Part shown: one piece after another, positions 4,563 through 50,942 of the stretch
Layout: every line of letters starts with the position of its first letter
How positions within the stretch are numbered: position 1 is the first letter of the stretch
Assembly: GCA_013204985.1 (NCBI GenBank)
Contig: JABMLG010000002.1
Span: forward strand, 186,001 to 250,000
Direction: 5' to 3'
DNA length: 64,000 bases
From: Microbacteriaceae bacterium VKM Ac-2855
GTDB taxonomy: Bacteria; Actinomycetota; Actinomycetes; Actinomycetales; Microbacteriaceae
Program-made: the position numbers and the translations under genes
The notes under the pieces: model-generated
What the model saw: only the letters and a program-made list of their open reading frames with translations
Database searches by the model: none
Told to the model about the DNA's origin: nothing

Positions 4563-5191
4563 ACTGCGTTCCTTTCGACGGACGCCGCGTTCACCGCGAG
4601 CATCCGTTCGACGTGACGGGCGAGGATGTCCGTCTCGATGTTGACCTGATCTCCCACGACGCGCTCGCCGAGGGTGGTGGCGGCCAGGGTCTCGGGGATG
4701 AGCGAGACCTCGAACCACTGCTCGGCGTCGTCCGCCGGGCTGATGCCGCTGACGGTGAGCGAGACGCCGTCGACGGCGATCGAGCCCTTGTCGGTGACCA
4801 AAGGGGCGGCGGTGGCCGGTAGCGAGAACCGCAGCACCCGCCAGGCGTCGCCCGGGGTGATGCGGAGCAGCGTGGCGGTGCCGTCGACGTGCCCCTGCAC
4901 GATGTGGCCCCCGAGCCGGTCGCCCACCAGAGCGGCGCGCTCGAGGTTGACCGCGGTGCCGACACCGGCGCCGTCGAGGGTGGACATCGCGAGCGTCTGC
5001 GCCATCACGTCGGCGGTGAACGACTCGGGGGTCTGCTCGACCACGGTCAGGCAGACGCCCGAGACCGCGATCGAGTCGCCGTGCCGGGCGCCGGTGACGG
5101 CGAGCGGACCGCGCACGGTGAGACGGATCGCATCCGCGCCGCGCTCGATCGCGGTGATCTCGCCGCGTTCTTCGATGATTCCGGTGAACAT
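4559..5191 (-). CDS. ribE: Riboflavin synthase, alpha chain
   Basis: This 210-residue enzyme dismutates two lumazine molecules into riboflavin. It starts with the family hallmark MFTGIIEE and has the two internally repeated barrel domains; GVCLTV in the first and GVSLTV in the second are the matching positions. Its ATG shares one base with the ribD stop (TGATG) and its own stop overlaps the ribBA start, so the three genes form a tightly coupled unit. Confidence 0.95.
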   Translation of the reverse strand: MFTGIIEERGEITAIERGADAIRLTVRGPLAVTGARHGDSIAVSGVCLTVVEQTPESFTADVMAQTLAMSTLDGAGVGTAVNLERAALVGDRLGGHIVQGHVDGTATLLRITPGDAWRVLRFSLPATAAPLVTDKGSIAVDGVSLTVSGISPADDAEQWFEVSLIPETLAATTLGERVVGDQVNIETDILARHVERMLAVNAASVERNAV

Positions 5192-6261
5192 CAGTGGGCC
5201 TCCATGTACAGGGCGGGATGCGCGGCGGCCGCGGCGGTGGTGTCGGCGGATGCGGCCGGCCGCGCGGTGATCAGGATGTCGTCGCCGAGTTGCTCGACGC
5301 CGCGCAGGCGCAGGCGGCGCGCCTCGCCGATCGAGTCGATGCCGATGTCGCCCAGCGCGAGGCGCGGGCCGCCGAGCAGGGCAGGGGCGAGGAAGACGAG
5401 GTACTCGTCCACCAGTCCGGCGGCGACGAGAGCGGAGGCGAGGGTCGGCCCGCCCTCCACGTAGAGGTGGCGGATATCGGCGGCGAAGAGGTCGCGCAGG
5501 ATCGCCGGCAGATCGTGGCCGCGCGCGAGGACGGGGCGGCGTGGATGCGAGAACACCCGAGCCGTCGCGGGGATCGGGCGTTCGCCGATCACGATCGGTA
5601 CGGGTTGCTCGCCGAGCAGCTCGCCGCCGTCGCCGCGCGCGGTCAGGCTGGGGTCGTCCGCGAGTACGGTGCCCGTGCCGACGGCGATCGCGTCCGCACT
5701 CGCCCGCTGCTCGTGCACGCGCTGCCGAGCCGCAGCTCCGGTGATCCATCGGCTGGAACCGTCGGCTGCAGCGGTGCGGCCGTCGAGCGTGGAGGCCCAC
5801 TTGAGACTCACGTAGGGGCGCTGCAGCCGCGTGGCGGTCAGCCAGATCCGCAGGAACGCCTCGGCCTCGTCGGCGAGGACGCCGGCGACGACCTCGACGC
5901 CCGCCGAGCGCAGGGTCTCGGCGCCGCCCGAGGAGCGCGGGCCCGGGTCGTCGATCGCGTAGACGACGCGGGTGATGCCGGCGTCGACGAGAGCCCGACT
6001 GCAGGGGCCGGTTCGGCCGGTGTGATTGCACGGCTCGAGCGAGACGACGGCGGTCGCACCGGCGGCTGCTCCGGGCGCGAGTCGAGAGAGTGCATCCACC
6101 TCGGCGTGCGCGGTGCCGGCCCCGTGGTGCCAGCCCTCGGCCAGCACGGAGCCGTCGGGAGAGAGGATGACGCAGCCCACGCGCGGGTTCCCGCCGTGAC
6201 GCGGCCCGCGCTCGGCGAGCGCGATGGCCCTGCGCATCGCCTGCTGGTAGCTGTCGGTCAT
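5191..6261 (-). CDS. ribD: Bifunctional diaminohydroxyphosphoribosylaminopyrimidine deaminase / 5-amino-6-(5-phosphoribosylamino)uracil reductase
   Basis: This 356-residue protein carries out the deaminase and reductase steps after GTP cyclohydrolase II. The N-terminal zinc deaminase has HAE at residues 52-54 and C78/C87 in SLEPCNHTGRTGPC, the standard ligand and proton-shuttle set. The C-terminal RibD reductase domain begins near VSLKWASTLDGR (about residue 146) and contains the VEGGPTLASAL motif. The ATG at 6261 is chosen because the usual RibD N-terminus begins here and everything upstream is riboswitch leader. It is the first gene of the rib operon. Confidence 0.95.
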   Translation of the reverse strand: MTDSYQQAMRRAIALAERGPRHGGNPRVGCVILSPDGSVLAEGWHHGAGTAHAEVDALSRLAPGAAAGATAVVSLEPCNHTGRTGPCSRALVDAGITRVVYAIDDPGPRSSGGAETLRSAGVEVVAGVLADEAEAFLRIWLTATRLQRPYVSLKWASTLDGRTAAADGSSRWITGAAARQRVHEQRASADAIAVGTGTVLADDPSLTARGDGGELLGEQPVPIVIGERPIPATARVFSHPRRPVLARGHDLPAILRDLFAADIRHLYVEGGPTLASALVAAGLVDEYLVFLAPALLGGPRLALGDIGIDSIGEARRLRLRGVEQLGDDILITARPAASADTTAAAAAHPALYMEAH

Positions 6262-6358
6262 TCCCGGATCTCTCGTTCGCTGACGAACTCCGGGGGTAAT
6301 GCGCGGTGTCGCCTTCGGGCTCGACCGTGTCGCGGTCACGCGGGGTCGCGTGATCGCT

Positions 6359-6496
6359 CGTGCTGCCTCCCATCCGGACTTTAACCGTCGGTTCCGGAAT
6401 TCCACCGGATCAACCGCGCGATGCACCTCACGGTGGACCGAACGGCTCGCGGACTATGACCGCCGGTTCGGATTCTCACCGACCCCGGAGCACGTT
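6359..6496 (-). promoter_or_regulatory. FMN riboswitch (RFN element) of the rib operon
   Basis: Read on the minus strand, this leader contains the conserved RFN landmarks in order: CGTGCTCCGGGGTCGGTG, GAATCCGAACCGGCGGT, AGTCCGCGA, GATCCGGTGGAATTCCGG, AACCGACGGTTAAAGTCCGG and GATGGGAGGCAGCACG, closing the P1 stem with the first block. It lies about 100 bases upstream of ribD. Binding of FMN is expected to reduce expression of ribD-ribE-ribBA-ribH. I could not decide from sequence whether control is by transcription termination or by translation. Confidence 0.96.
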
Positions 6497-11372: not shown

Positions 11373-13895
11373 ATGACCGCCTCCCTGCTCGACCGGATGC
11401 CCCCGCAGCTCAGCGACGGGAGCATCGACGAGGATGCGATCTACCTCGCCTTCGCGGATTGGGCCGCCTCGCGCGGCCTCGCGCTGTATCCGGCGCAGGA
11501 CGAGGCGATGATCGAGATCGTCTCCGGTGCGAACCTGATCCTCTCCACCCCCACCGGCACGGGCAAGTCGCTGGTCGCGATCGGAGCGCACGCCTACGCC
11601 CTGGCGCAGGGTCGGCGCAGCTACTACACCGCGCCGATCAAGGCGCTGGTCAGCGAGAAGTTCTTCGCACTCGTCGACATCTTCGGCGCCGCGAACGTGG
11701 GCATGGTCACCGGGGATTCGTCGGTCAACGCCGACGCGCCCATCATCTGCTGCACCGCCGAGATCCTCGCGAACCTGGCGCTGCGGCACGGTGCCGAGAC
11801 CGACGTCGACCAGGTCGTGATGGACGAATTCCACTTCTACGCGGATCCGGATCGCGGCTGGGCCTGGCAGGTGCCGCTGCTGACCCTGCCGCACACGCAG
11901 TTCATCCTGATGTCGGCCACACTCGGCGACGTCACGGAACTGAGTAAAGACCTCAGCCGCCGCACCGGCCGCGAGACCGCCTCCGTCACCGGGGTCGAGC
12001 GCCCCGTGCCGCTGCACTACTACTACGAGATCCTGCCGATCCACGACTCGATCGAGGAGCTGCTGCACACGAACCAGTACCCGATCTACATCGTGCACTT
12101 CTCGCAGATGGCGGCGTTGGAGCGGGCGCAGGCGTTGACCAGCGCGAACATCGCCAGCCGCGAGCACCGCGACCGCATTGCCGAGGTGATCGGCGGCTTC
12201 CGCTTCACGACCACGTTCGGCAAGACCCTGAGCCGGCTGCTGCGGCTCGGGATCGGCGTGCACCACGCGGGGATGCTGCCCAAGTACCGCCGCCTGGTCG
12301 AGCAGCTCGCCCAGCAGGGCATGCTCCGGGTGATCTGCGGCACCGATACGCTCGGCGTGGGCATCAACGTGCCGATCCGCACGGTGCTGCTCAGCGCCCT
12401 GACCAAGTTCGACGGCACCCGGATGCGCCAGCTCACGGCCCGCGAGTTCCACCAGATCGCGGGGCGCGCGGGCCGCGCCGGCTACGACACCGCGGGCACC
12501 GTGGTGGTGCAGGCGCCCGAGCACGAGTCCGAGAACCGCAAGGCGCTGGCGAAGATGGGCGACGACCCGAAGAAGCGCCGCAAATGGGTCTCGAAGAAGG
12601 CGCCGCAGGGCTTCGTCTCGTGGGGCGAGCCGAGCTTCCGCAAGCTGGTGGAGGCCGACCCCGAGACTCTCACCTCGAACATGCAGATCACCTCCGCGAT
12701 GCTGCTGAACGTCATCGCGCGCGGGGGCGACGCCTACGCGAACGTGTACTCCCTGGTCTTCGACAACCACGAGCCCTGGAAGCGTCAGCTGCAGCTGGCC
12801 CGGCGGGCGCTCGGCATCTACCGCACGCTGCGCGCTGCGGGAGTCGTCGAGCAGTTCCCGCAACCCGACGGGTCGGTGCAGATCCGCCTCACCGTCGACC
12901 TGCAGCCGAACTTCGCGCTGAATCAGCCGCTCTCGCCGTTCGCGCTCGCCGTGTTCGAACTGCTCGATCCGGAATCACCGAGTTTCGCGCTCGACGTGAT
13001 CTCGGTGCTCGAGGCGACCCTCGATGACCCGCGGCCGATCCTGAGCCAGCAGCAGTTCCAGGCACGCGGCGAGGCCGTGGCCGCGATGAAGGCCGAGGGC
13101 ATCGAGTTCGACCAGCGGATGGAACTGCTCGAATCGGTCACGCATCCCAAGCCGCTCGACGAGCTGCTCGACGCCGCCTTCGAGACGTACACCGCCTCGC
13201 AGCCGTGGGTGCGCGACTTCGAGCTCTCGCCCAAGTCGGTCGTGCGCGACATGTACGAACGGGCCATGACGTTCGGCGAGTACACCGCGATGTACAAGCT
13301 CTCCCGCTCGGAGGGCCTGGTGCTGCGCTACCTGTCGGACGCGTTCCGTGCGGCACGACAGACGATTCCGGACGAGATCAAGAACGAAGAGCTGCACGAT
13401 CTCATCGAGTGGCTCGGCGAACTGGTGCGGCAGGTCGACTCCTCGCTGGTGGACGAGTGGGAAGAGCTGATCAACCCGAGCCTGCACGACGCCGACGGAG
13501 CGATCGTGCCGCCCGCGCCCCGCCGACTCTCGGCGAACGTCCGTGCCTTCCGTGTGCTCATCCGCAATGAGCTGTTCCGCCGCGTGCAGCTGGCGGCGCT
13601 CGAGAACTGGGAGGCGCTCGGTGAGCTCGACGCCGCGGCCGGCTTCGACGCCGACGCGTGGGCCGACGCGATGGACCCGTACTGGGACGAGCACGACGAC
13701 CTCGGCACCGGTCCGGATGCGCGCGGGCCGAGCATGCTGCTGGTCACCGAGACGGCGACTCAGTGGCGGGTGCGGCAGATCTTCGACGACCCGTCGGGCG
13801 ACCACGACTGGGGTATCAGCGCCACCGTCGACCTCGCGGAGTCGGACGAGGCGGGCACGGCCGTGGTGCGCGTCACCGCAGTCAGCCGCCTCTAA
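11373..13895 (+). CDS. DEAD/DEAH-box (Ski2-like) helicase with C-terminal DUF3516
   Basis: This 840-residue superfamily 2 helicase carries Walker A STPTGTGKS near residues 58-66, motif II DEFH near 152, motif III SAT near 182 and motif VI HQIAGRAGRAG near 360. This is the Ski2/RecQ-like layout, with a variant DEFH box. The C-terminal half (from about residue 400) matches the actinobacterial DUF3516 region that follows this type of helicase. It probably unwinds RNA; the substrate is not shown by sequence. GAGAAT six bases before the ATG fits leaderless transcription. The gene is full length. Confidence 0.9.
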   Translation: MTASLLDRMPPQLSDGSIDEDAIYLAFADWAASRGLALYPAQDEAMIEIVSGANLILSTPTGTGKSLVAIGAHAYALAQGRRSYYTAPIKALVSEKFFALVDIFGAANVGMVTGDSSVNADAPIICCTAEILANLALRHGAETDVDQVVMDEFHFYADPDRGWAWQVPLLTLPHTQFILMSATLGDVTELSKDLSRRTGRETASVTGVERPVPLHYYYEILPIHDSIEELLHTNQYPIYIVHFSQMAALERAQALTSANIASREHRDRIAEVIGGFRFTTTFGKTLSRLLRLGIGVHHAGMLPKYRRLVEQLAQQGMLRVICGTDTLGVGINVPIRTVLLSALTKFDGTRMRQLTAREFHQIAGRAGRAGYDTAGTVVVQAPEHESENRKALAKMGDDPKKRRKWVSKKAPQGFVSWGEPSFRKLVEADPETLTSNMQITSAMLLNVIARGGDAYANVYSLVFDNHEPWKRQLQLARRALGIYRTLRAAGVVEQFPQPDGSVQIRLTVDLQPNFALNQPLSPFALAVFELLDPESPSFALDVISVLEATLDDPRPILSQQQFQARGEAVAAMKAEGIEFDQRMELLESVTHPKPLDELLDAAFETYTASQPWVRDFELSPKSVVRDMYERAMTFGEYTAMYKLSRSEGLVLRYLSDAFRAARQTIPDEIKNEELHDLIEWLGELVRQVDSSLVDEWEELINPSLHDADGAIVPPAPRRLSANVRAFRVLIRNELFRRVQLAALENWEALGELDAAAGFDADAWADAMDPYWDEHDDLGTGPDARGPSMLLVTETATQWRVRQIFDDPSGDHDWGISATVDLAESDEAGTAVVRVTAVSRL

Positions 13896-38398: not shown

Positions 38399-39706
38399 AT
38401 GCCTCAGAAAAAGATGCACCTCGGCTGGTTCATGAACTTCAGCAAGCCGGCCTGGAACTCGCAGTGGACGATCGAGAGCGAGGCCCGCGGCTGGATGAAC
38501 GGCGACTTCCACATCGACTGGATTCGCTCCATGGAGCGCGCCTGCATGGACTTCGCCATGCTCGAGGACTCCTCGATGGTCTCCGACACCTACGGCAGCT
38601 CGATGCAGATCGACCTCAAGCACGGCCTCTACGCCCCCAAGGGCGACCCGCTCTCGATCGCGCCCGTGCTTGCGAAGGCCACCTCGCGCATCGGCATCAT
38701 CTCGACCGCCTCCACCTCGTTCTACCCGCCGTTCCTGCTCGCCCGCGCGATGGCGACCATCGACCACATCTCCGAGGGCCGCGCCGGCTGGAACATCGTC
38801 ACCTCCTCGGAGGACCGCGCTGCGCAGAACTACAACATGGACAAGCTCTACGAGCACGACACCCGCTACGAGATGGCGGATGAATTCCTCCAGGTCGCCG
38901 AAGCGCTCTGGAACTCGTGGGACGCGGATGCCCAGGTGATGGACCGCGCGACCGGCACCTACACCGACTTCGAGAAGGTCAACCCGATCAACCACAAGGG
39001 CACGTACTACCAGGTTCGAGGACCCTTGAACCTGCTGCGCCCGCCGCAGGGTCGACCCGTGTACTGCCAGGCCGGCGGCTCGCCGCGCGGCCGCGCTTTC
39101 GCCGCAGCCCACGCCGAGGTGATCATCTGCGCCGCGCAGGGCGAGGCCGACATGATCGAGTTCCGCGACGACATCCGCCGCCGGATGATCGCGATCGGCC
39201 GCGATCCCGAGAGCTGCAAGGTGATGTTCATCGTCGCGCCGGTTCTCGCCGACACCCAGGCCGAGGCCGAGCGCAAGTTCGAGGAGATGGCGCACCCCTC
39301 CTCCAACTCCGTCGAGGTGTCGCTCGGTCACATGGGCGCACTGACCGAGATCGACTTCTCGGGTCTGGACTTCGACGCACCGTTCCCCGAGAACCTGCGC
39401 ACCAACGGCCACACCACCACGCTGGAGAAGTTCCTCGGCCTCGGCACCACCTTGCGCGAGGCGACCGGCAAGTGGGCGACCCGCTACACGGATGCTCGTT
39501 TCGTCGGCACCCCCGAGAAGGTCGCGCACGAGATGGGCGCGGTTTTCGAGGCGGTCGGCGGCGACGGCTTCCTGATCGCGGGCGGCGGCACCCGCCGCGG
39601 CATCACCGAGATCACCGACGGCCTGATCGGCGCACTGCAGCAGCAGGGCCACGCGCGCACCGAGTACGAGTACCCGACGCTGCGCGAGAACCTGTTGGCG
39701 TTCTGA
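38399..39706 (+). CDS. FMN-dependent monooxygenase, NtaA/SnaA/DszA family (third)
   Basis: This 435-residue luciferase-like monooxygenase has MHLGWFMNFSKPAWN, DFAMLEDSSMVSDTYGSSMQ, ASTSFYPPFLLARAMATIDHISEGRAGWNIVTS, RYEMADEFLQVAEALW and a C-terminal PTLRENLLAF almost identical to the first copy's ending. GAAAGAAG lies before the ATG. Its stop and the next start share one base (TGATG). Together with the following gene this is a tandem paralogue pair. Confidence 0.9.
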   Translation: MPQKKMHLGWFMNFSKPAWNSQWTIESEARGWMNGDFHIDWIRSMERACMDFAMLEDSSMVSDTYGSSMQIDLKHGLYAPKGDPLSIAPVLAKATSRIGIISTASTSFYPPFLLARAMATIDHISEGRAGWNIVTSSEDRAAQNYNMDKLYEHDTRYEMADEFLQVAEALWNSWDADAQVMDRATGTYTDFEKVNPINHKGTYYQVRGPLNLLRPPQGRPVYCQAGGSPRGRAFAAAHAEVIICAAQGEADMIEFRDDIRRRMIAIGRDPESCKVMFIVAPVLADTQAEAERKFEEMAHPSSNSVEVSLGHMGALTEIDFSGLDFDAPFPENLRTNGHTTTLEKFLGLGTTLREATGKWATRYTDARFVGTPEKVAHEMGAVFEAVGGDGFLIAGGGTRRGITEITDGLIGALQQQGHARTEYEYPTLRENLLAF

Positions 39707-43857: not shown

Positions 43858-44715
43858 TCAGCCGGCCGTCCGCACGTGCGTGCGGTCCATGATCGCCGTG
43901 GTCAACGCGTCCACCGGCTCCTTCGGTGCCATCGGGCCCTGCAGCAGCCGGAAGTCGATGTCCTCCAGCTCGGGCAGCCCGAAGCGGTTCGACACGGTGA
44001 CCAGATCGTTCGGGATGAGCGACCGCGGGAAGACCGCGATGCCGATGCCCGCGCGCACGGCGGCGAGCACGCCGTTCACCTCGCGGGTGTTGCAGGTGAT
44101 CCGCCAGGTCCGCCCGGCGGCTTCGAGCGCGTCGATCGCGATCTGCCGCGACACGCTCGGCCCCCGGTACGCGATCAGCGGTACCGTCTCGTGCGGCTCG
44201 ACCACGGTCTTCTCGTGCGCGACCCAGACCATGGTGTCGCGCCGCACCAGCCGCCCGTCGGGTGCGCCGGGCGCGGTCTTCACGAAGATCAGGTCGAGCT
44301 GACCGGCCTCGAGCTTGCGCCGCAACGGCGCACTCTGGTCGACGGTGAGCTCGAGCTTGACCTGCGGATGCAGTTGCCGGAAGTGTCGCAGGATGCGCGG
44401 CAGCTGCGTGATCGCCAAGTCGTCCGCGGATCCGAAGCGCAGTCGCCCCTTCATCGCGGTACCCGTGAAGTAGTTCTCGGCCGAAGTGTGCGCCGCGAGG
44501 ATCGTTCGAGCGAAGCCGGCCATCGCGACGCCGTTGTCGGTGAGCTCGACGTCGCGGGTGTCGCGCGAGACGAGGATGCGGCCGGCCGCATCCTCGAGGC
44601 GACGCACGTGCTGGCTGACGGTCGGCTGGCTAAGTCCGAGCTGCGCGGCGGCCCGCGTGAATCCGCGGGTCTCGGCCACGGCCAGGAATGTCTTCAGCAG
44701 AACGGGTTCGAACAC
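43858..44715 (-). CDS. LysR-family regulator
   Basis: This 285-residue protein has the LysR winged HTH at residues 1-60 (LLKTFLAVAETRGFTRAAAQLGLSQPTVSQHVRRLE) and the two-lobe effector domain after it. Upstream, ATTGC-GTTAG-GCAAT (44739-44753) fits the T-N11-A LysR box. Its first 58 codons and 60 bases of upstream sequence are duplicated at 50709-50942. In the ancestral arrangement it would have been divergent from the MFS gene at 51031, so that transporter is the likely target, now 6.2 kb away. Confidence 0.92.
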   Translation of the reverse strand: MFEPVLLKTFLAVAETRGFTRAAAQLGLSQPTVSQHVRRLEDAAGRILVSRDTRDVELTDNGVAMAGFARTILAAHTSAENYFTGTAMKGRLRFGSADDLAITQLPRILRHFRQLHPQVKLELTVDQSAPLRRKLEAGQLDLIFVKTAPGAPDGRLVRRDTMVWVAHEKTVVEPHETVPLIAYRGPSVSRQIAIDALEAAGRTWRITCNTREVNGVLAAVRAGIGIAVFPRSLIPNDLVTVSNRFGLPELEDIDFRLLQGPMAPKEPVDALTTAIMDRTHVRTAG

Positions 44716-44775
44716 GGGAGCCCTCCGACGTCGTCGTCATTGCGTTAGGCAATGGGAGTTATAGCCGCAATTTAC
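44542..44775. repeat. 234-bp direct repeat, left copy
   Basis: This segment covers codons 1-58 of lysR, its operator and the bases up to the insertion. It is repeated at 50709-50942 with one difference (A at 44632, G at 50799, silent in Leu28). Sequence to its left continues lysR; sequence to its right is island DNA. Confidence 0.97.
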
Positions 44776-44801
44776 CAGAGTTGCACCGGCGGCCCCTAGT
44801 T

Positions 44802-47800
44802 CTAGCGCCTCTCACGCTCAACACTCCAGGCCTGCAAGCCGTCGTAGGAAAATCCAATAACGGCTGAGACTATAGCATTATCATCCTGGCCCGTAAGGAA
44901 GTTTCCGATGGATGGTGTGAAGAACGCCTCGATATCGTTCTTCAGGAGGATGGTGCCTCGTGTAGGACCACGCAATTCGTTGACACGTCCCCTGACACGC
45001 ATCAATTTGGCTGGTGGCGACTGGCTTGTACGGCGCTCCCAACCCGCAACGTCCGCCTTATTGACTAACCGATCCAAGCCGGTACCATTGCCGAGCCAGT
45101 CAAAAACCGTTCGTCGCTGTTTGAAATCTCGGCTTCTCGACTTCATCCGCTCTATCTTGCCGGAGAGTTCGTCAGCCGACACCAGGCCGCCATTCAATGC
45201 ATGAATTGACGTCAGCACGCAATCATAATAGAGCGCGTCACGGGACGTGTCATGTTCGACCCAGGTGGAAACAACCTCTAACGCGCGCGATAGGCTGATG
45301 CCGCCAACGCGCCCAGCCTTCAGCCATACCCGCAGAGTTGCGCCGTCTGTCGGGTTGTCTCGGAGGCTGGCGTTGAGCAGACTCATAGCGGCCTCGACGT
45401 CAGTGGGGGATGCGGAGCTCCATCCGCCGCTCCTCTGCCCATAAAGTCGTGCGAGCCGAACTCGAAGGGCGGTTTTCGATCCCATCGTCGTGTCGAGTAT
45501 GTTTCTGTAGCCCTCAATCATTGCAGAGTAGTCGTCGTATACTCCTTCGAGTCGAGCTCGGACGCTCCTAATGGCGTTGGACGGCTGATCGTCTCCCTCC
45601 ACCTCGCCTACCGCGTCGACGCAATCTTCGGCCTTGTCGAGAAGCTCCGAATAGAACGCAGAGCTGACCTTTCGAAGGAACCCCGCATAACTGACTGAGC
45701 CGTCTATTGACTTTCCCCATTCAATCACGCTGAGACAGAGTTCTGCTGTCGAAATGAGGGGGTAGTCGGAGGTGTCGTCCAGCTGGGTCGCTCGATCGTA
45801 GGCGTCAATCGCCATGCGGGCTATTCGCTCGACCTCCCCGCCCACCTCATTCTTGAGGACGGGGGTCAATTCTGGGTGGCGGTGGCGTTCGAGGTAGTCG
45901 AAAAGTTCTCGGCGTGCATTTGTGCCCTTCATGTGGAGGATGACCGGATCGTCATTCCTGATTCGGATGGCCTCGTCCATACTTTCGCGGGCCGCGTCAT
46001 GATTTCGCAGATCCGAACTCTGCCAGCGGGAGAAATGGGCCCAATAGTGCGCTTCTTCAGGAAAACATTCCGTGAGCGCCACAAAAACACGTTCCCGACT
46101 TTCATATGGAAGGGAGTCGATCAAGTCGGAGTATCTGGCGCGGTCACTCTCGCCACGCACCTCGCGTTTGATGAAAAGCTGCTTTAGGAGTTCGTCATAG
46201 TCGAACGACAGTTCTCCTGTAGTGGCTTCTGCCACGTACTTGATTAACGTCTCTGACCAGTAAGCGAGATTTGTTTTCCACGCACCGCGCGAGTTACGGC
46301 TTGCGCCTTCGATCGGGGTGAGGCATTCCCGTAGAATTTGCTCGGCGATGAGTGAATGTGGAGTTCGCCAATACCCTGCTCTCTCTTCGAGAAGCAAACC
46401 ATCAAACTTAGTCCCAAAATAGTCTCGGAGCGCAACAGCCTCATCAGCTGTGCGGGCAAGCATGCGAGAAAACATGCTTGAATGGATTGAGGTGGCTCCG
46501 TACCTGTGGGACAATGCTGTTAATATCACGACGGGCAAAAGATCTACTTCGACTTCTTCGAGGAAGGCGTGCACGTACTCCGACAGACCTACAAAATCGT
46601 CATGAAAGGCGGTCAAAGCAAATATGAAGGGAACGGGCGACTCGGGACTCGAAGCTGCTCCCAGTCGACTGATGGCGCTGTGACGATCTGGCCTAATTGC
46701 CGTGAAGAACCGCTTGAAGTCCACTGCCTCGTCGTGGTCCATGGGCGGGAGCATCTTGGCAGCGTCGGCGATCTTTGGCGTGTAGGAAGCCCTCGAGACG
46801 AGGAGGATTAGTGCCGCGACAGAGTTGGATCGCAATCGGTCATATAGTGCATCGGTTACTTGCGAACTGGCCGCTTCGATGACCACAAGCACCTTCTGGT
46901 CCGTCAATTTCGCAAGAAGTTCAATCCGGTCGGCAAGTGCGTTACTCTCCGCGAGCCGGGACACCACAATCACCGGGTATGAATCTCTAAACTCCCAAGC
47001 GACTCGTCGAGTTACGGTCGTCCCGCCGGCCCCTGGAAAGTGACCAAATACATGTCTGTCCGTCGAACGCTTCGCCAATTTCGACGCCAGAGCCCGCTTA
47101 AGGGCCCCGACCGCTGGATCGCGAAATAGGTCGACATCGTTACTTAGTTCGAACCAAGTAATCTGTCTGCCGCTGTAAAAATCTACTCCGACCCCATCTA
47201 TCGATTCTGACTCGAATACTATCAAGCTATGTAGAATCTCATAGCCATCTTCGAGGTACTTGCGATTAATCGGGCTTAACACCACCCTGCCGCCATCGTT
47301 TCCTGGCAACGTGGCAAGTGCGTCCGGCATGAGGTTGACTATAGGCTTTGGATTGATTGCGAGTGCAACGGTATTTGCGTCGTGTGCGAGAAGGCGAGCC
47401 GAATAGCCACCCAGAAGTGCTGATTCACGCTGGTGGACGAGGGTTACTAAAGCTCGGTCACCGGCGGCGTCCAAAATGGCGTCGATAACGGAGCGAGCGC
47501 GATCGTCGGGTTCCCCGAAGACAAACAATTTGAATGGCTGCACGAATGAGGTGGCCAGATTGCTGGCAAGCAACTCGATACTCGGGAGTAAAGTCCTGCG
47601 CCACTCTCGAAAACTTCGGTCGGTTCTCGTGGAACTCCCAACAGGTTCTAACCCTGCAGCTGCGAGCCACGTTGTCCAGTTTCGTGACCAACTCGGCTGT
47701 TGGGTGGGAATGAGGAGTCGTACTTGGTCTCCTACCTCCTTCATGAAGCGGTAGCTGCCGTTGACCTCGTCGGTCAGGGTATCAAAATCTACGACGACAT

Positions 47801-49154
47801 CCCAGCCGGCGCTAGCAAGCCTCACTCGTTCCCAGTGGTTTAGCCCGCCATCAGGTATGACAGCGATCGATACAACTCGCGCGTCGAAGTTGCAGCATTC
47901 AGCAGAGATCTCCCGCGCTGCTGCGATTGCCGCCTGTTGGTCTGGGCTGATTTCTGGACCAATGGTGGCCTGGCTCGTGTCATCAAACTTGAGTTTGCTG
48001 ATTAATATCCATTGAGTTGCGGCGATGGATGCAAGTTCGAAGAACCATAATCTCGTATCCTTTGCTAAGCGATCGCGGCTGCTCAATACGAGTGCGGAGC
48101 CACAAATCGATAGCCAAAATTGTGTCCGCCATTCGCTGCCGTAATTACGCTCAAGCGCCAGTCGGCTGCCGCATTCCTCCACTGAGGACCATGCGTCGGT
48201 GATTGCAGCTAGTTCCGAAGGCAGGCGTGAGTCGTCCCTTTCCTCGATCCAATCAAGTAGAGAAGCGCTTAGTCCTGTCGGCCAAGATGCAACCGCTCTT
48301 TCGATTTCAGATAGGAGTAAGTTCGCGGGGTCGTCGCTCAACGATCGATCTGTGTCGAAATGCGCGAGGTCGATCAACCGATACAAATCGGGCTGCGCTT
48401 GTTGCATGATTGGCAACAAGACATTCTCGACATGTAGGTCGCCGTGAGAATTTCCCACTAACGCAATGGTTCGGTAGTCTTGGTTTTCTGGTCGAGCGAG
48501 TATTAGGGGATTATAGAGGAGCCGATCCCCTTTCGAGGCAGTGAACCGAAGCCTTGTTGCTGAAACGCATTCTTCGCCAAATTCATCGGCGAGCCATGTA
48601 GGGATGCGACCATTTGGAACGGTGCGTTTGGCGACCCGTGCGCCGAGGATCTCTAAGGGTGGTGCCTCTTTGGCTCGAACATCGTCATTCCAATCCTTGA
48701 TGATGGATGTGGTGATCGTGGCAAGGCTCCTGGTCATGTCCTTCTTGCCTGTGAGTGATGACAAAGGCTGCCATACCTGTCGATCTCCGCCGGCGAACTG
48801 TTGAAGAATCAAGCCGCTTCCGTCGCTGAGGGGGAGCGGTTCGCAAAAGAGTTCAACCAGGTGTGCTTCCGCAAATTTCCTGTCCGCGTCCAGAGCTCGT
48901 GAGTGTCGCTCACCTTCGTCGGAGTTGGCGGCGCCCGGGTTTAATTTCAGTACCAAGCGACGATCGCCGTGGCCCGTCGTTGATCTGGCGGTGACCATTC
49001 CGACTACTGCCCCGCTGAGTCCTGGGGTCAGAAGTCGTTCGGGCTCGATGATTACGTTCATTCCGAATGCCCAAGCGGTCACCTCGACTGCTCGCTCATG
49101 GCCGATCCATTCGGCTAGCGTGGAGAGGGGTCGGTCCATAGGCAGATCGGTCAT
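44802..49154 (-). CDS. Large SAMD9-like STAND NTPase with N-terminal kinase-like domain (candidate defence protein)
   Basis: About 1450 residues. At the N-terminus TPGLSGAVVGMV (about 43-54), VLKL with Lys70, SHGDLHVENVLL (His237) and LIDLAHFDTD (Asp262) read as the Gly-loop, Lys, catalytic loop and metal-Asp of an aminoglycoside-phosphotransferase-like kinase. DFYSGRQITWFEL (about 658) precedes a P-loop FGHFPGAGGTTVTRRVAW (about 703-720), which lacks the usual Lys and resembles the GxGGTT loop of SAMD9 proteins; VLVVIE (about 756) is a possible Walker B. TPR-like helices follow (about 1030-1130), and the last 65 residues (RVRGRVNEL, FFTPSIGNFL, IGFSYDGLQAW) look like the SAMD9 OB-fold. ATG 49154 follows AGAAGGA. 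The codon use is unlike its neighbours, showing transfer. Confidence 0.7.
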   Translation of the reverse strand: MTDLPMDRPLSTLAEWIGHERAVEVTAWAFGMNVIIEPERLLTPGLSGAVVGMVTARSTTGHGDRRLVLKLNPGAANSDEGERHSRALDADRKFAEAHLVELFCEPLPLSDGSGLILQQFAGGDRQVWQPLSSLTGKKDMTRSLATITTSIIKDWNDDVRAKEAPPLEILGARVAKRTVPNGRIPTWLADEFGEECVSATRLRFTASKGDRLLYNPLILARPENQDYRTIALVGNSHGDLHVENVLLPIMQQAQPDLYRLIDLAHFDTDRSLSDDPANLLLSEIERAVASWPTGLSASLLDWIEERDDSRLPSELAAITDAWSSVEECGSRLALERNYGSEWRTQFWLSICGSALVLSSRDRLAKDTRLWFFELASIAATQWILISKLKFDDTSQATIGPEISPDQQAAIAAAREISAECCNFDARVVSIAVIPDGGLNHWERVRLASAGWDVVVDFDTLTDEVNGSYRFMKEVGDQVRLLIPTQQPSWSRNWTTWLAAAGLEPVGSSTRTDRSFREWRRTLLPSIELLASNLATSFVQPFKLFVFGEPDDRARSVIDAILDAAGDRALVTLVHQRESALLGGYSARLLAHDANTVALAINPKPIVNLMPDALATLPGNDGGRVVLSPINRKYLEDGYEILHSLIVFESESIDGVGVDFYSGRQITWFELSNDVDLFRDPAVGALKRALASKLAKRSTDRHVFGHFPGAGGTTVTRRVAWEFRDSYPVIVVSRLAESNALADRIELLAKLTDQKVLVVIEAASSQVTDALYDRLRSNSVAALILLVSRASYTPKIADAAKMLPPMDHDEAVDFKRFFTAIRPDRHSAISRLGAASSPESPVPFIFALTAFHDDFVGLSEYVHAFLEEVEVDLLPVVILTALSHRYGATSIHSSMFSRMLARTADEAVALRDYFGTKFDGLLLEERAGYWRTPHSLIAEQILRECLTPIEGASRNSRGAWKTNLAYWSETLIKYVAEATTGELSFDYDELLKQLFIKREVRGESDRARYSDLIDSLPYESRERVFVALTECFPEEAHYWAHFSRWQSSDLRNHDAARESMDEAIRIRNDDPVILHMKGTNARRELFDYLERHRHPELTPVLKNEVGGEVERIARMAIDAYDRATQLDDTSDYPLISTAELCLSVIEWGKSIDGSVSYAGFLRKVSSAFYSELLDKAEDCVDAVGEVEGDDQPSNAIRSVRARLEGVYDDYSAMIEGYRNILDTTMGSKTALRVRLARLYGQRSGGWSSASPTDVEAAMSLLNASLRDNPTDGATLRVWLKAGRVGGISLSRALEVVSTWVEHDTSRDALYYDCVLTSIHALNGGLVSADELSGKIERMKSRSRDFKQRRTVFDWLGNGTGLDRLVNKADVAGWERRTSQSPPAKLMRVRGRVNELRGPTRGTILLKNDIEAFFTPSIGNFLTGQDDNAIVSAVIGFSYDGLQAWSVERERR

Positions 49155-49308
49155 CTGAGTCCTTCTACACTTCGAAACTGGGTCGAGTTCTGCGTGAAAT
49201 CGGAGCATGACACGTCTCTCTGAACTGGGCAAGGTCGCCTGGCTCGAGGAGGATGTTTGAGTTCAGGGGTCATCGCAAGGGGGCTCGGTGTGTCGATGGG
49301 ACATAGCT

Positions 49309-50708
49309 GGCTCTTCGCAATTGATGGTGTAGCCGTACGGGTGTGAGGTTGGCGCGTCGGTGCGGGGAATGAGGTCGAGGTCTTCCCAAGATGGAAGTTC
49401 TCACACTCACCGTCCGGAAGACCTCGACATGCCTCACGCCACCTTCAGTGACCCTGATCTCACGAGCTCTGCCGCTTGGACGAGCTCGGCCTGCACGCCA
49501 TCGGTCAGCTGCTCGAGCCCGACCGGGCCGTGCTGGAGTGCCGCGTCGTCGACGCGGATCGGTGGTGCAAGACGTGCGGCGCGGGGCGCGTCGTTCGTGA
49601 CACGGTCGCGCGGCGTCTCGCGCACGAACCGTTGGGTTCGCGACCCACGATTCTGCTGATCCGGGTGCGCCGCTACTGCTGCACCGGCTGCGGCCAGGTC
49701 TGGCGGCAAGACACCACGAAAGCAACGGAGCCGCGCGCGAAGATCTCGCGTCGCGGTCTGCGGTGGGCGCTGGAGGGCCGCGTCATCGGCCACCTCACCG
49801 TCACCCGCGTCGCCGCCGGTCTGGGCGCGTCCTGGCACACCGCGAACGACACCGTCCTCGCCGAAGGCAGACGGATGCTGATCGATGACCCGACCCGGTT
49901 CGACGGGGTCACCACGATCGGTGTCGACGAGCATGTCTGACGGCACACCCGCCATGGCGAGAAGTACGTCACCGTGACCATCGACCTCACCCCGATCCGC
50001 GCAAAGACGCGCCCGGCGCGGCTGTTGGACGTGGCCGAGGGAGGCTCCAAGGCCGTGTTCAAATAGTGGCTCGCCGACCGCCTGCAAGTCTGGCGGGCCA
50101 GAGTCGAGGTCGTTGCGATGGACGGCTTCACCGGCTTCAAAACGGCCGCTGCGGAGGAACTTCCCGACGCGGTCCCGGTGATGGATCCGTTCCACGTCGT
50201 CCGCCTCGCCGGCGACGCTCTGGACCGTTGCCGGCAACGGATCCAACAGCACACGATGGGGCATCGCGGCCGATCCGGTAACCCGCTCTACTCCGCCCGG
50301 CGCACCTTGCATACTGGCGCAAACCTGCTCACTGACAAGCGGCGCGCCCGCCTCGAGGCCGTGTTCGCGACTGAGGAGCACGTCGAGGTCGAAGTGACCT
50401 GGGGTATCTACCAGCGCATGATCGCCGCCTACCGCGACCCCGACCGCGCGAGCGGCAAGACCGTGATGCAAGCCCTGATCGCCTCGATCGGCAGCGGCGT
50501 TCCCCGGGCCCGAAGGAGTTGGTCACGCTGGGCCGGACCATGAAATTCCGCGCCGCTGACGTCCTGGCCTACTTCGACCGTCCCGGCACCTCCAACGGGC
50601 CCACCGAAGCGATCAACGGCCGCCTCGAACACCTCCGCGGCTCCGCCCTCGGATTTCGCAACCTGACCAACTACAGCGCCCGATCACTACTCGAAACCGG
50701 CGGCTTCA
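49309..50708 (+). mobile_element. ISL3-family insertion sequence remnant
   Basis: The left end starts near GGCTCTTCGCAATT (49309), which looks like an ISL3 terminal repeat. The transposase reading starts at 49429 after a perfect 12-bp inverted repeat (TCGAGGTCTTCC at 49375, GGAAGACCTCGA at 49416) that would hide its start in a hairpin. The right end, including the last codons and the right terminal repeat, is missing and is replaced by the right 234-bp repeat at 50709. Confidence 0.85.
49429..50706 (+). pseudogene. ISL3-family transposase, broken
   Basis: The protein can be followed across three frames: MPHATFSDPDL, then after a frameshift near 49463 LDELGLHAIGQLLEPDRAVL with the zinc-finger WCKTCGAGR and YCCTGCGQVWRQD, then DEHV followed by TGA at 49938 where the family has Trp. 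After KYVTVTIDLTPIRA comes TAG at 50064, then VVAMDGFTGFKTA and PVMDPFHVVRLAGDALDRCR. A second frameshift near 50505 leads into VLAYFDRPGTSNGPTEAING. It stops at LLETGGF, about ten residues short. Two stops, two frameshifts and a lost end rule out activity. Confidence 0.92.
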
Positions 50709-50882
50709 GAGCTCGACGTCGCGGGTGTCGCGCGAGACGAGGATGCGGCCGGCCGCATCCTCGAGGCGACGCACGTGCTGGCTGACGGTCGGCTGGCTGA
50801 GTCCGAGCTGCGCGGCGGCCCGCGTGAATCCGCGGGTCTCGGCCACGGCCAGGAATGTCTTCAGCAGAACGGGTTCGAACAC
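50706..50882 (-). pseudogene. 58-codon LysR fragment (DNA-binding domain only)
   Basis: This is the duplicated 5' end of the lysR gene: codons 1-58, identical in protein sequence, ending ...RDTRDVEL, and then TGA (50706-50708) formed exactly at the junction with island DNA. It has the same start codon, leader and operator as the intact gene. It may be a mere remnant, but as an open frame it could produce an isolated winged HTH. Confidence 0.85.
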
Positions 50883-50942
50883 GGGAGCCCTCCGACGTCG
50901 TCGTCATTGCGTTAGGCAATGGGAGTTATAGCCGCAATTTAC
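50709..50942. repeat. 234-bp direct repeat, right copy
   Basis: Matches 44542-44775 at 233 of 234 positions. Its right border (50943) continues into the leader of the MFS gene at 51031, so this copy keeps the ancestral promoter side of the locus. The LysR box ATTGC-GTTAG-GCAAT is at 50906-50920. Confidence 0.97.

Follow-up and report, generated by a model that had tools for sequence, protein, structure and literature searches.

Poxviruses are restricted by the animal proteins SAMD9 and SAMD9L, mutations of which cause human disease (PMC13245274, PMC5445408); in SAMD9 the N-terminal position is taken by a tRNase (PMC13245274). Bacterial members of the family were described by Mekhedov et al. 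(2017), who give a GGT/S P-loop with a conserved upstream histidine as a family feature, report that the AlbA_2 domain is missing from many bacterial members, and find an N-terminal Ser/Thr kinase in many of them, in particular in actinomycetes (PMC5445408). Kinases of the aminoglycoside phosphotransferase (APH) type are listed as effectors of ternary conflict systems (PMC7159879, PMC8195603), and TCAD9 has been named as a domain associated with vWA-MoxR-VMAP (PMC10910872). Here we describe a gene on the minus strand (44802..49154) of a 64,000-nucleotide stretch of Microbacteriaceae bacterium VKM Ac-2855 (contig JABMLG010000002.1, positions 186,001 to 250,000), referred to below as the window. 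Sequence profile, P-loop signature, domain order and predicted fold all speak strongly for its product being a bacterial member of the SAMD9 family, with a predicted APH-type kinase in first position.

The SAMD9-family core and its gene

The gene lies within a mechanically called open reading frame (ORF) of the minus strand (49232..44802), in which the ATG at 49154 gives a product of 1,450 amino acids composed of the following parts.

44802..49154, minus strand: SAMD9-like protein with an N-terminal APH/TCAD9-like kinase, 1450 amino acids, as judged from the ORF and from a full-length relative (L037) of the same architecture
49160..49166, minus strand: Shine-Dalgarno-like AGAAGGA, 5 bases before the ATG, read from the sequence
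47925..49154, minus strand: kinase-like domain, residues 1-410 (K70, HGDLHVEN 237-244, D262), with a TCAD9 match and these residues invariant in eight aligned domains
47235..47921, minus strand: SIR2-like region, about residues 412-640, inside which the alignment of the core profile to human SAMD9 begins; much of the region is modelled with low confidence
46665..47183, minus strand: STAND-like P-loop domain, about residues 658-830 (nSTAND_NTPase5 27.6 bits, below the 34-bit cut-off)
47016..47042, minus strand: Lys-less P-loop HFPGAGGTT, residues 705-713 (HxPGxGGTT in 9/9 family proteins)
45132..46286, minus strand: TPR-like helical repeat region, about residues 957-1341, from helices of the model and PDB fold matches to TPR proteins and SAMD9
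44814..44996, minus strand: C-terminal beta module (OB-like), about residues 1387-1447, with five model strands, superposed on the SAMD9 C-terminus

A previous reading of this DNA from its letters alone, hereafter the original prediction, had called a 1450-codon gene here, and this gene proved real and intact: the ATG at 49154 is preceded by AGAAGGA, no AGAAGGA-type site lies upstream of the longer TTG start at 49232, and the motifs that had been quoted were located (HGDLHVEN at 237-244, LIDLAHFD from about 260, HFPGAGGTT at 705-713, FFTPSIGNFL and GFSYDGLQAW near the end). The composition of the gene (GC 0.551, third-position GC or GC3 0.591) may be set beside that of 50 other window ORFs, chosen by a script that favours high GC3, of which 40 have a GC3 of at least 0.84 and one (38464-38883, 0.46) is lower than the gene.

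Membership of the SAMD9 family is carried by several lines of evidence. A profile of seven cores matched human SAMD9 with an E-value of 2.9e-31 over profile positions 39-728 (hmmsearch), compared with E 0.18 for the window sequence alone, and the best PDB fold match of the predicted core is SAMD9. The SAMD9 hallmark HxPGxGGTT, in which glycine takes the place of the Walker lysine, is present in 9/9 full-length family proteins, namely the window protein, six relatives from a scan of contigs, and two others (L003, L071); the region of residues 703-720 thus does bear similarity to the SAMD9 P-loop, through both this signature and the profile match. The AFFxP of the C-terminal beta module is likewise kept in 9/9, the match of this OB-like module alone to SAMD9 being not significant (i-Evalue 1.3e+02). 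The SAMD9-like layout that had been proposed is accordingly borne out by profile, P-loop signature, domain order and best fold match, and a SIR2-like middle region, absent from the first reading, is also present. Correct too was the call of a Lys-less P-loop: the canonical Walker A lysine is absent from the window sequence (GAGGTT) with a glycine in its place, and because the SAMD9 family is marked by the loss of this lysine the predicted domain is termed STAND-like and not canonical STAND. Neither AlbA_2 nor a SAM domain was found by Pfam in the window protein, where the kinase-like domain stands in the place of AlbA; membership stands despite this, because the absence of AlbA_2 is allowed for in the published account of the family (PMC5445408).

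The Pfam model nSTAND_NTPase5 was tried as a test of membership and rejected as non-specific, matching 243/246 phylum genomes and 14/14 controls at E <=0.001. Its cut-off was passed in 10 genomes, most strongly in G054 (63.6 bits; L007, L074), whose 1,319-codon frame lacks the letters GGTT, the GGS form not having been looked for. The single ORF of at least 500 amino acids in another stretch (L015) is, by eye, an FtsK-like ATPase.

The N-terminal kinase-like domain and its exchange among relatives

In the first 410 residues K70, HGDLH (237-241), N244 and D262, which we take to be the catalytic lysine, the HGD(L/I)xxxN loop and the metal-binding aspartate, are invariant across eight aligned kinase domains; the alignment was made without L040 and L071, both of which have the HGDLHxxN loop. 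HGDLH is the loop of APH-type kinases and HRDLK that of Ser/Thr kinases, and no Pfam Ser/Thr kinase model matches the window kinase domain. TCAD9 (PF19974) matches residues 1-410 with E 1.2e-7 and 31.7 bits, below its 40-bit gathering cut-off (27.8 bits against the whole window protein, and 39.2 bits for L039, the best of the fully scanned relatives), and 8/8 of the kinase domains at E <=1, while the APH and Kdo profiles each match 2/8, weakly (best E 0.00029 and 0.00068). The AlphaFold model of the kinase, made with five sequences, has a predicted local distance difference test score (pLDDT) of 35.6 and is unusable, and PDB profile searches with five and with eight kinase domains gave chance rows only. 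An APH-like kinase, as first proposed, thus holds by sequence, with the predicted catalytic residues intact, but its fold is unconfirmed, and the label is kept to 'TCAD9-like' because the score lies under the Pfam cut-off. Among 148 class genomes TCAD9 was found at E <=1e-8 in two, both below the cut-off and neither of them the window genome.

Relatives were sought by running a core profile, made from the window protein and two relatives, against genome contigs, where 319 stretches matched the pattern and six encode a relative (L038 was taken as the same contig as L002 and counted once). The HGDLHxxN loop places an N-terminal kinase in 6/9 of the full-length proteins, namely those of the window, Actinomadura bangladeshensis (L037), Streptomyces (L039, L040, L042) and L071 (from G854), of which the window protein, L037, L039 and L042 were run against TCAD9. 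A PNP_UDP_1 nucleoside phosphorylase (PNP) is N-terminal in 2/9 (L038, 70.3 bits against a cut-off of 25.1, and L003 by alignment), and the remaining protein, from a Bacteroidota metagenome-assembled genome (L041), has a weak DUF4145 match there (18.4 bits, below the cut-off of 23.1); these proportions are no census, as the search began from the window and the PNP type. Because a kinase, a nucleoside phosphorylase or a weak DUF4145 match is found at the same place, the N-terminal position looks like an exchangeable effector slot. At the other end, L041 has a cold-shock domain after the core, and L039, L040, L042 and L071 have about 150 extra C-terminal residues, an extension that resembles LOTUS/OST-HTH by eye and gave no Pfam match at E 0.1 in L039.

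The kinase domain is also present in proteins of other architecture, N-terminal (L004) or C-terminal (L005) in NTPase/TPR proteins and N-terminal to a TPR protein (L006). In a kinase tree of ten rows, few in number and with long branches, the window and Actinomadura kinases group with L004 and L005, and the Streptomyces-type kinases with L006 (100/99); a single clade of the six SAMD9-core kinases is rejected (approximately unbiased test, p 0.0032). The core tree leaves the unity of the kinase-bearing cores unsettled (59/48). The simplest reading would be that this kinase type was joined to a SAMD9 core on two or more separate occasions, or that the kinase moved out of the core.

On a Streptomyces plasmid (L004:8687-16985) two kinase proteins, one with NTPase and TPR parts and the other with a tail that is beta-propeller-like by eye, lie together with an S-4TM putative pore-forming effector beside transposase genes; this cluster may be a conflict system of several genes built on the shared kinase domain.

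These other settings bear on whether the kinase-like domain might be an adaptor or regulator, docking a partner or autophosphorylating, with killing left to the SIR2-like region or to another protein. The Pfam name, 'Ternary complex associated domain', is in keeping with such a role, as is the recurrence of the domain with varied partners (the two L004 proteins beside the S-4TM effector, L005 and L006), and effector-associated domains are likewise described with one copy on an NTPase and further copies on effectors (PMC8195603); most Ser/Thr kinase domains of ternary systems are moreover reported to have disrupted catalytic residues (PMC7159879). However, the lysine, HGDLHxxN loop and aspartate retained in the eight aligned domains would be needless for a pure adaptor, a recognised enzyme domain occupies the same slot in the PNP relatives, and no partner gene was recognised within the insert that carries the gene (see below). 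We regard the adaptor role as rather unlikely.

On balance we favour, with some confidence, a bacterial SAMD9-family single-protein immune switch, probably acting by abortive infection, with the APH-type kinase as its effector and a defence function that is presumed. The C-terminal TPR and OB-like part would sense a ligand linked to infection, possibly RNA or a protein of the phage. The Lys-less STAND-like module, to judge from the SAMD9 literature, may keep the protein closed and permit its assembly on the trigger, binding NTP rather than hydrolysing it. The N-terminal APH-type kinase, once released, would be the effector and would phosphorylate a host or phage target so that growth stops; this target could be a small molecule, RNA or a protein that takes part in translation. 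By analogy the kinase should be the effector because the same position holds the tRNase in SAMD9 and the PNP in L038. In Detocs, PNP acts as the effector and cleaves ATP (PMC11249213), and defence by DS-6 depends on the residue predicted to be catalytic in a HipA-type kinase (PMC13092281).

The acquired insert and its genomic setting

The gene is carried by an insert of about 5.9 kb (44776-50708), with 234 bp duplicated, for which the following features were recorded.

44542..44775, plus strand: left copy of the 234-bp direct repeat, comprising the 5' portion of a LysR-type gene together with the region upstream
50709..50942, plus strand: right copy of this direct repeat, with one mismatch to the left copy; the repeat is single in L063
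49476..50543, plus strand: broken ISL3 transposase within the insert, its two pieces matching positions 2-132 and 184-310 of a 370-position profile

In a genome of the same genus (G598, L063) the repeat occurs once and the LysR region is contiguous with the far-side transporter region, with no insert; three further genomes of the genus (L064-L066, 4.2-kb pieces) have the LysR region once and no match to the gene. From the flanking repeat and the empty single-copy site in G598 it follows that about 5.9 kb were inserted with duplication of 234 bp, and horizontal acquisition of the gene at an otherwise empty site is supported, in agreement with the transferred insert of the original prediction. 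A duplication of 234 bp exceeds the usual length of a transposon target duplication; it could, for instance, have arisen when a circle carrying those 234 bp integrated by a single crossover. The gene had further been described as the only intact gene of a low-GC insert. No second intact gene was recognised within 44776-50708, but low GC is confined to the gene and the sequence just upstream, the remaining insert (49331-50708) having a GC of 0.676. That the companion ISL3 transposase is broken would suit a reading in which the gene is merely carried along on a transposon-borne insert and is decaying, without function at present; this reading is highly improbable, however, given a 1,450-codon frame that has no internal stop and retains the P-loop and kinase residues invariant in its relatives at a core identity to them of 34% or less.

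The gene is rare. Searches with the single protein matched 1/396 phylum genomes, the one being the window's own, and 3/199 family genomes, and the core profile at E <=1e-15 matched 2/394 class genomes, each sample including the window's own genome. Viral contigs gave two pattern matches and no relative, phages gave none either by protein or, for a 901-base portion of the gene, by DNA, and three plasmid records match in the kinase part only.

Some of the relatives adjoin genes of mobility or modification. A phage integrase lies directly upstream of the relative in L037, an integrase-like ORF (by eye; no Pfam match) directly upstream in L042 with a methyltransferase further upstream, and a methyltransferase match, covering the C-terminal part of the profiles only, downstream in L038. 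A pooled PADLOC scan of 37 neighbours gave four matches to mad2 and two each to several methyltransferase models; when ten neighbours were scanned singly only those of L038 and L042 matched, and Pfam showed no mobility gene among the two neighbours scanned for L039 or the two for L041. In L037 (13989-17486), one gene from the Actinomadura kinase-SAMD9 gene, a 1,165-amino-acid protein has a C-terminal APH domain.

The window was also considered as a defence island, an idea that gained no support, no clear defence system being found among 39 of its other ORFs (pooled PADLOC, E <=1e-10), and the window protein itself matched no PADLOC family at E up to 10. Matches in the pooled window scan were to HamB helicase models, mad3 (2 ORFs), CARF5--CARF_ADA, PDC-M23B and SngC, of which those to HamB are probably the DUF3516 helicase at 11373-13895 and the others stand at the level of the pooled set. 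An FMN riboswitch (RF00050, 95.5 bits, 6357-6496, minus strand) overlaps the listed start of a RibD-type gene (5191-6426) and is ordinary.

The suggestion that the gene may be a single-gene defence system is a presumption: some of the relatives lie beside integrase or methyltransferase genes, so that homologues are not confined to stable metabolic contexts, while the 39 other window ORFs scanned include no clear defence system. The near neighbours of the gene look metabolic or regulatory, and Mekhedov et al. proposed signal transduction only for the bacterial members (PMC5445408), both of which would accord with a STAND-type signalling protein of normal physiology, in development or stress, that came to lie on a mobile insert by chance. 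The rare and patchy distribution given above, the empty site in the genus-mate and the variation of N-terminal domains among relatives nevertheless argue against such a protein, as does the antiviral role of SAMD9 and of Avs5, whose predicted structure is reported to be similar to that of SAMD9 (PMC12931631), and we hold a purely physiological role to be improbable. The gene is probably a one-gene immune switch.

Comparison with known systems

What triggers the P-loop/TPR/OB chassis is, to our knowledge, not yet settled. In bacterial proteins built on this chassis, whose warheads (kinase, nucleosidase) are easy to assay, phages could be used to study both the trigger and the Lys-less switch, and the recurrent kinase in the slot predicts a kinase effector, whose substrate should be findable by standard phosphoproteomics. 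More tentatively, SAMD9 could be one animal branch of a bacterial immune chassis with a freely swapped N-terminal warhead: a tRNA nuclease in animals and, in bacteria, a nucleosidase, perhaps a HEPN-like RNase, and APH-type kinases recruited on two separate occasions. The kinase form would stop infected cells by phosphorylating a small molecule, RNA or a translation component, a chemistry that no immune effector on this chassis is yet known to use; taken as a whole, this wider picture is possible but doubtful.

The original prediction was not aware of any described system headed by a kinase-like domain, which does not hold as a general statement, since bacterial kinase-first SAMD9 members were reported in 2017, as Ser/Thr kinases (PMC5445408). 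Already known, then, are kinase-first bacterial SAMD9 proteins and APH-type kinases as proposed effectors of other STAND-linked conflict systems. An APH-type kinase on a SAMD9 core, its two lineages and its exchange with PNP were not found in searches of the open-licence PMC literature, a scope outside which figure 1 and the supplements of Mekhedov et al. fall. The window protein shares with the members of Mekhedov et al. a kinase followed by a SAMD9 core, but its kinase has an HGDLH loop and a TCAD9 match and no match to a Ser/Thr model, and the two sets may overlap (PMC5445408). With the ternary conflict systems and TCAD9 (PMC7159879, PMC8195603, PF19974) it has in common the same kind of kinase domain in STAND-linked conflict proteins; it differs in the fusion of that kinase to a SAMD9 core, in its TCAD9 score below the Pfam cut-off, and in that its insert holds no recognised gene for MoxR, vWA or VMAP. 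Avs5 presents a similar single-protein layout of Sir2, STAND and helical repeats (Foldseek 9jap, E 1.8e-6), but has Sir2 and nSTAND3 domains with no kinase mentioned in the portion of its description used here (PMC12931631), whereas the window protein matches no PADLOC model. With animal SAMD9 and SAMD9L the window protein shares, in the same order, the SIR2-like region, the Lys-less GGT P-loop with its upstream histidine, the TPR region and a predicted C-terminal OB-like module, and differs from them in presenting a predicted APH-type kinase where the SAM domain and AlbA tRNase would stand.

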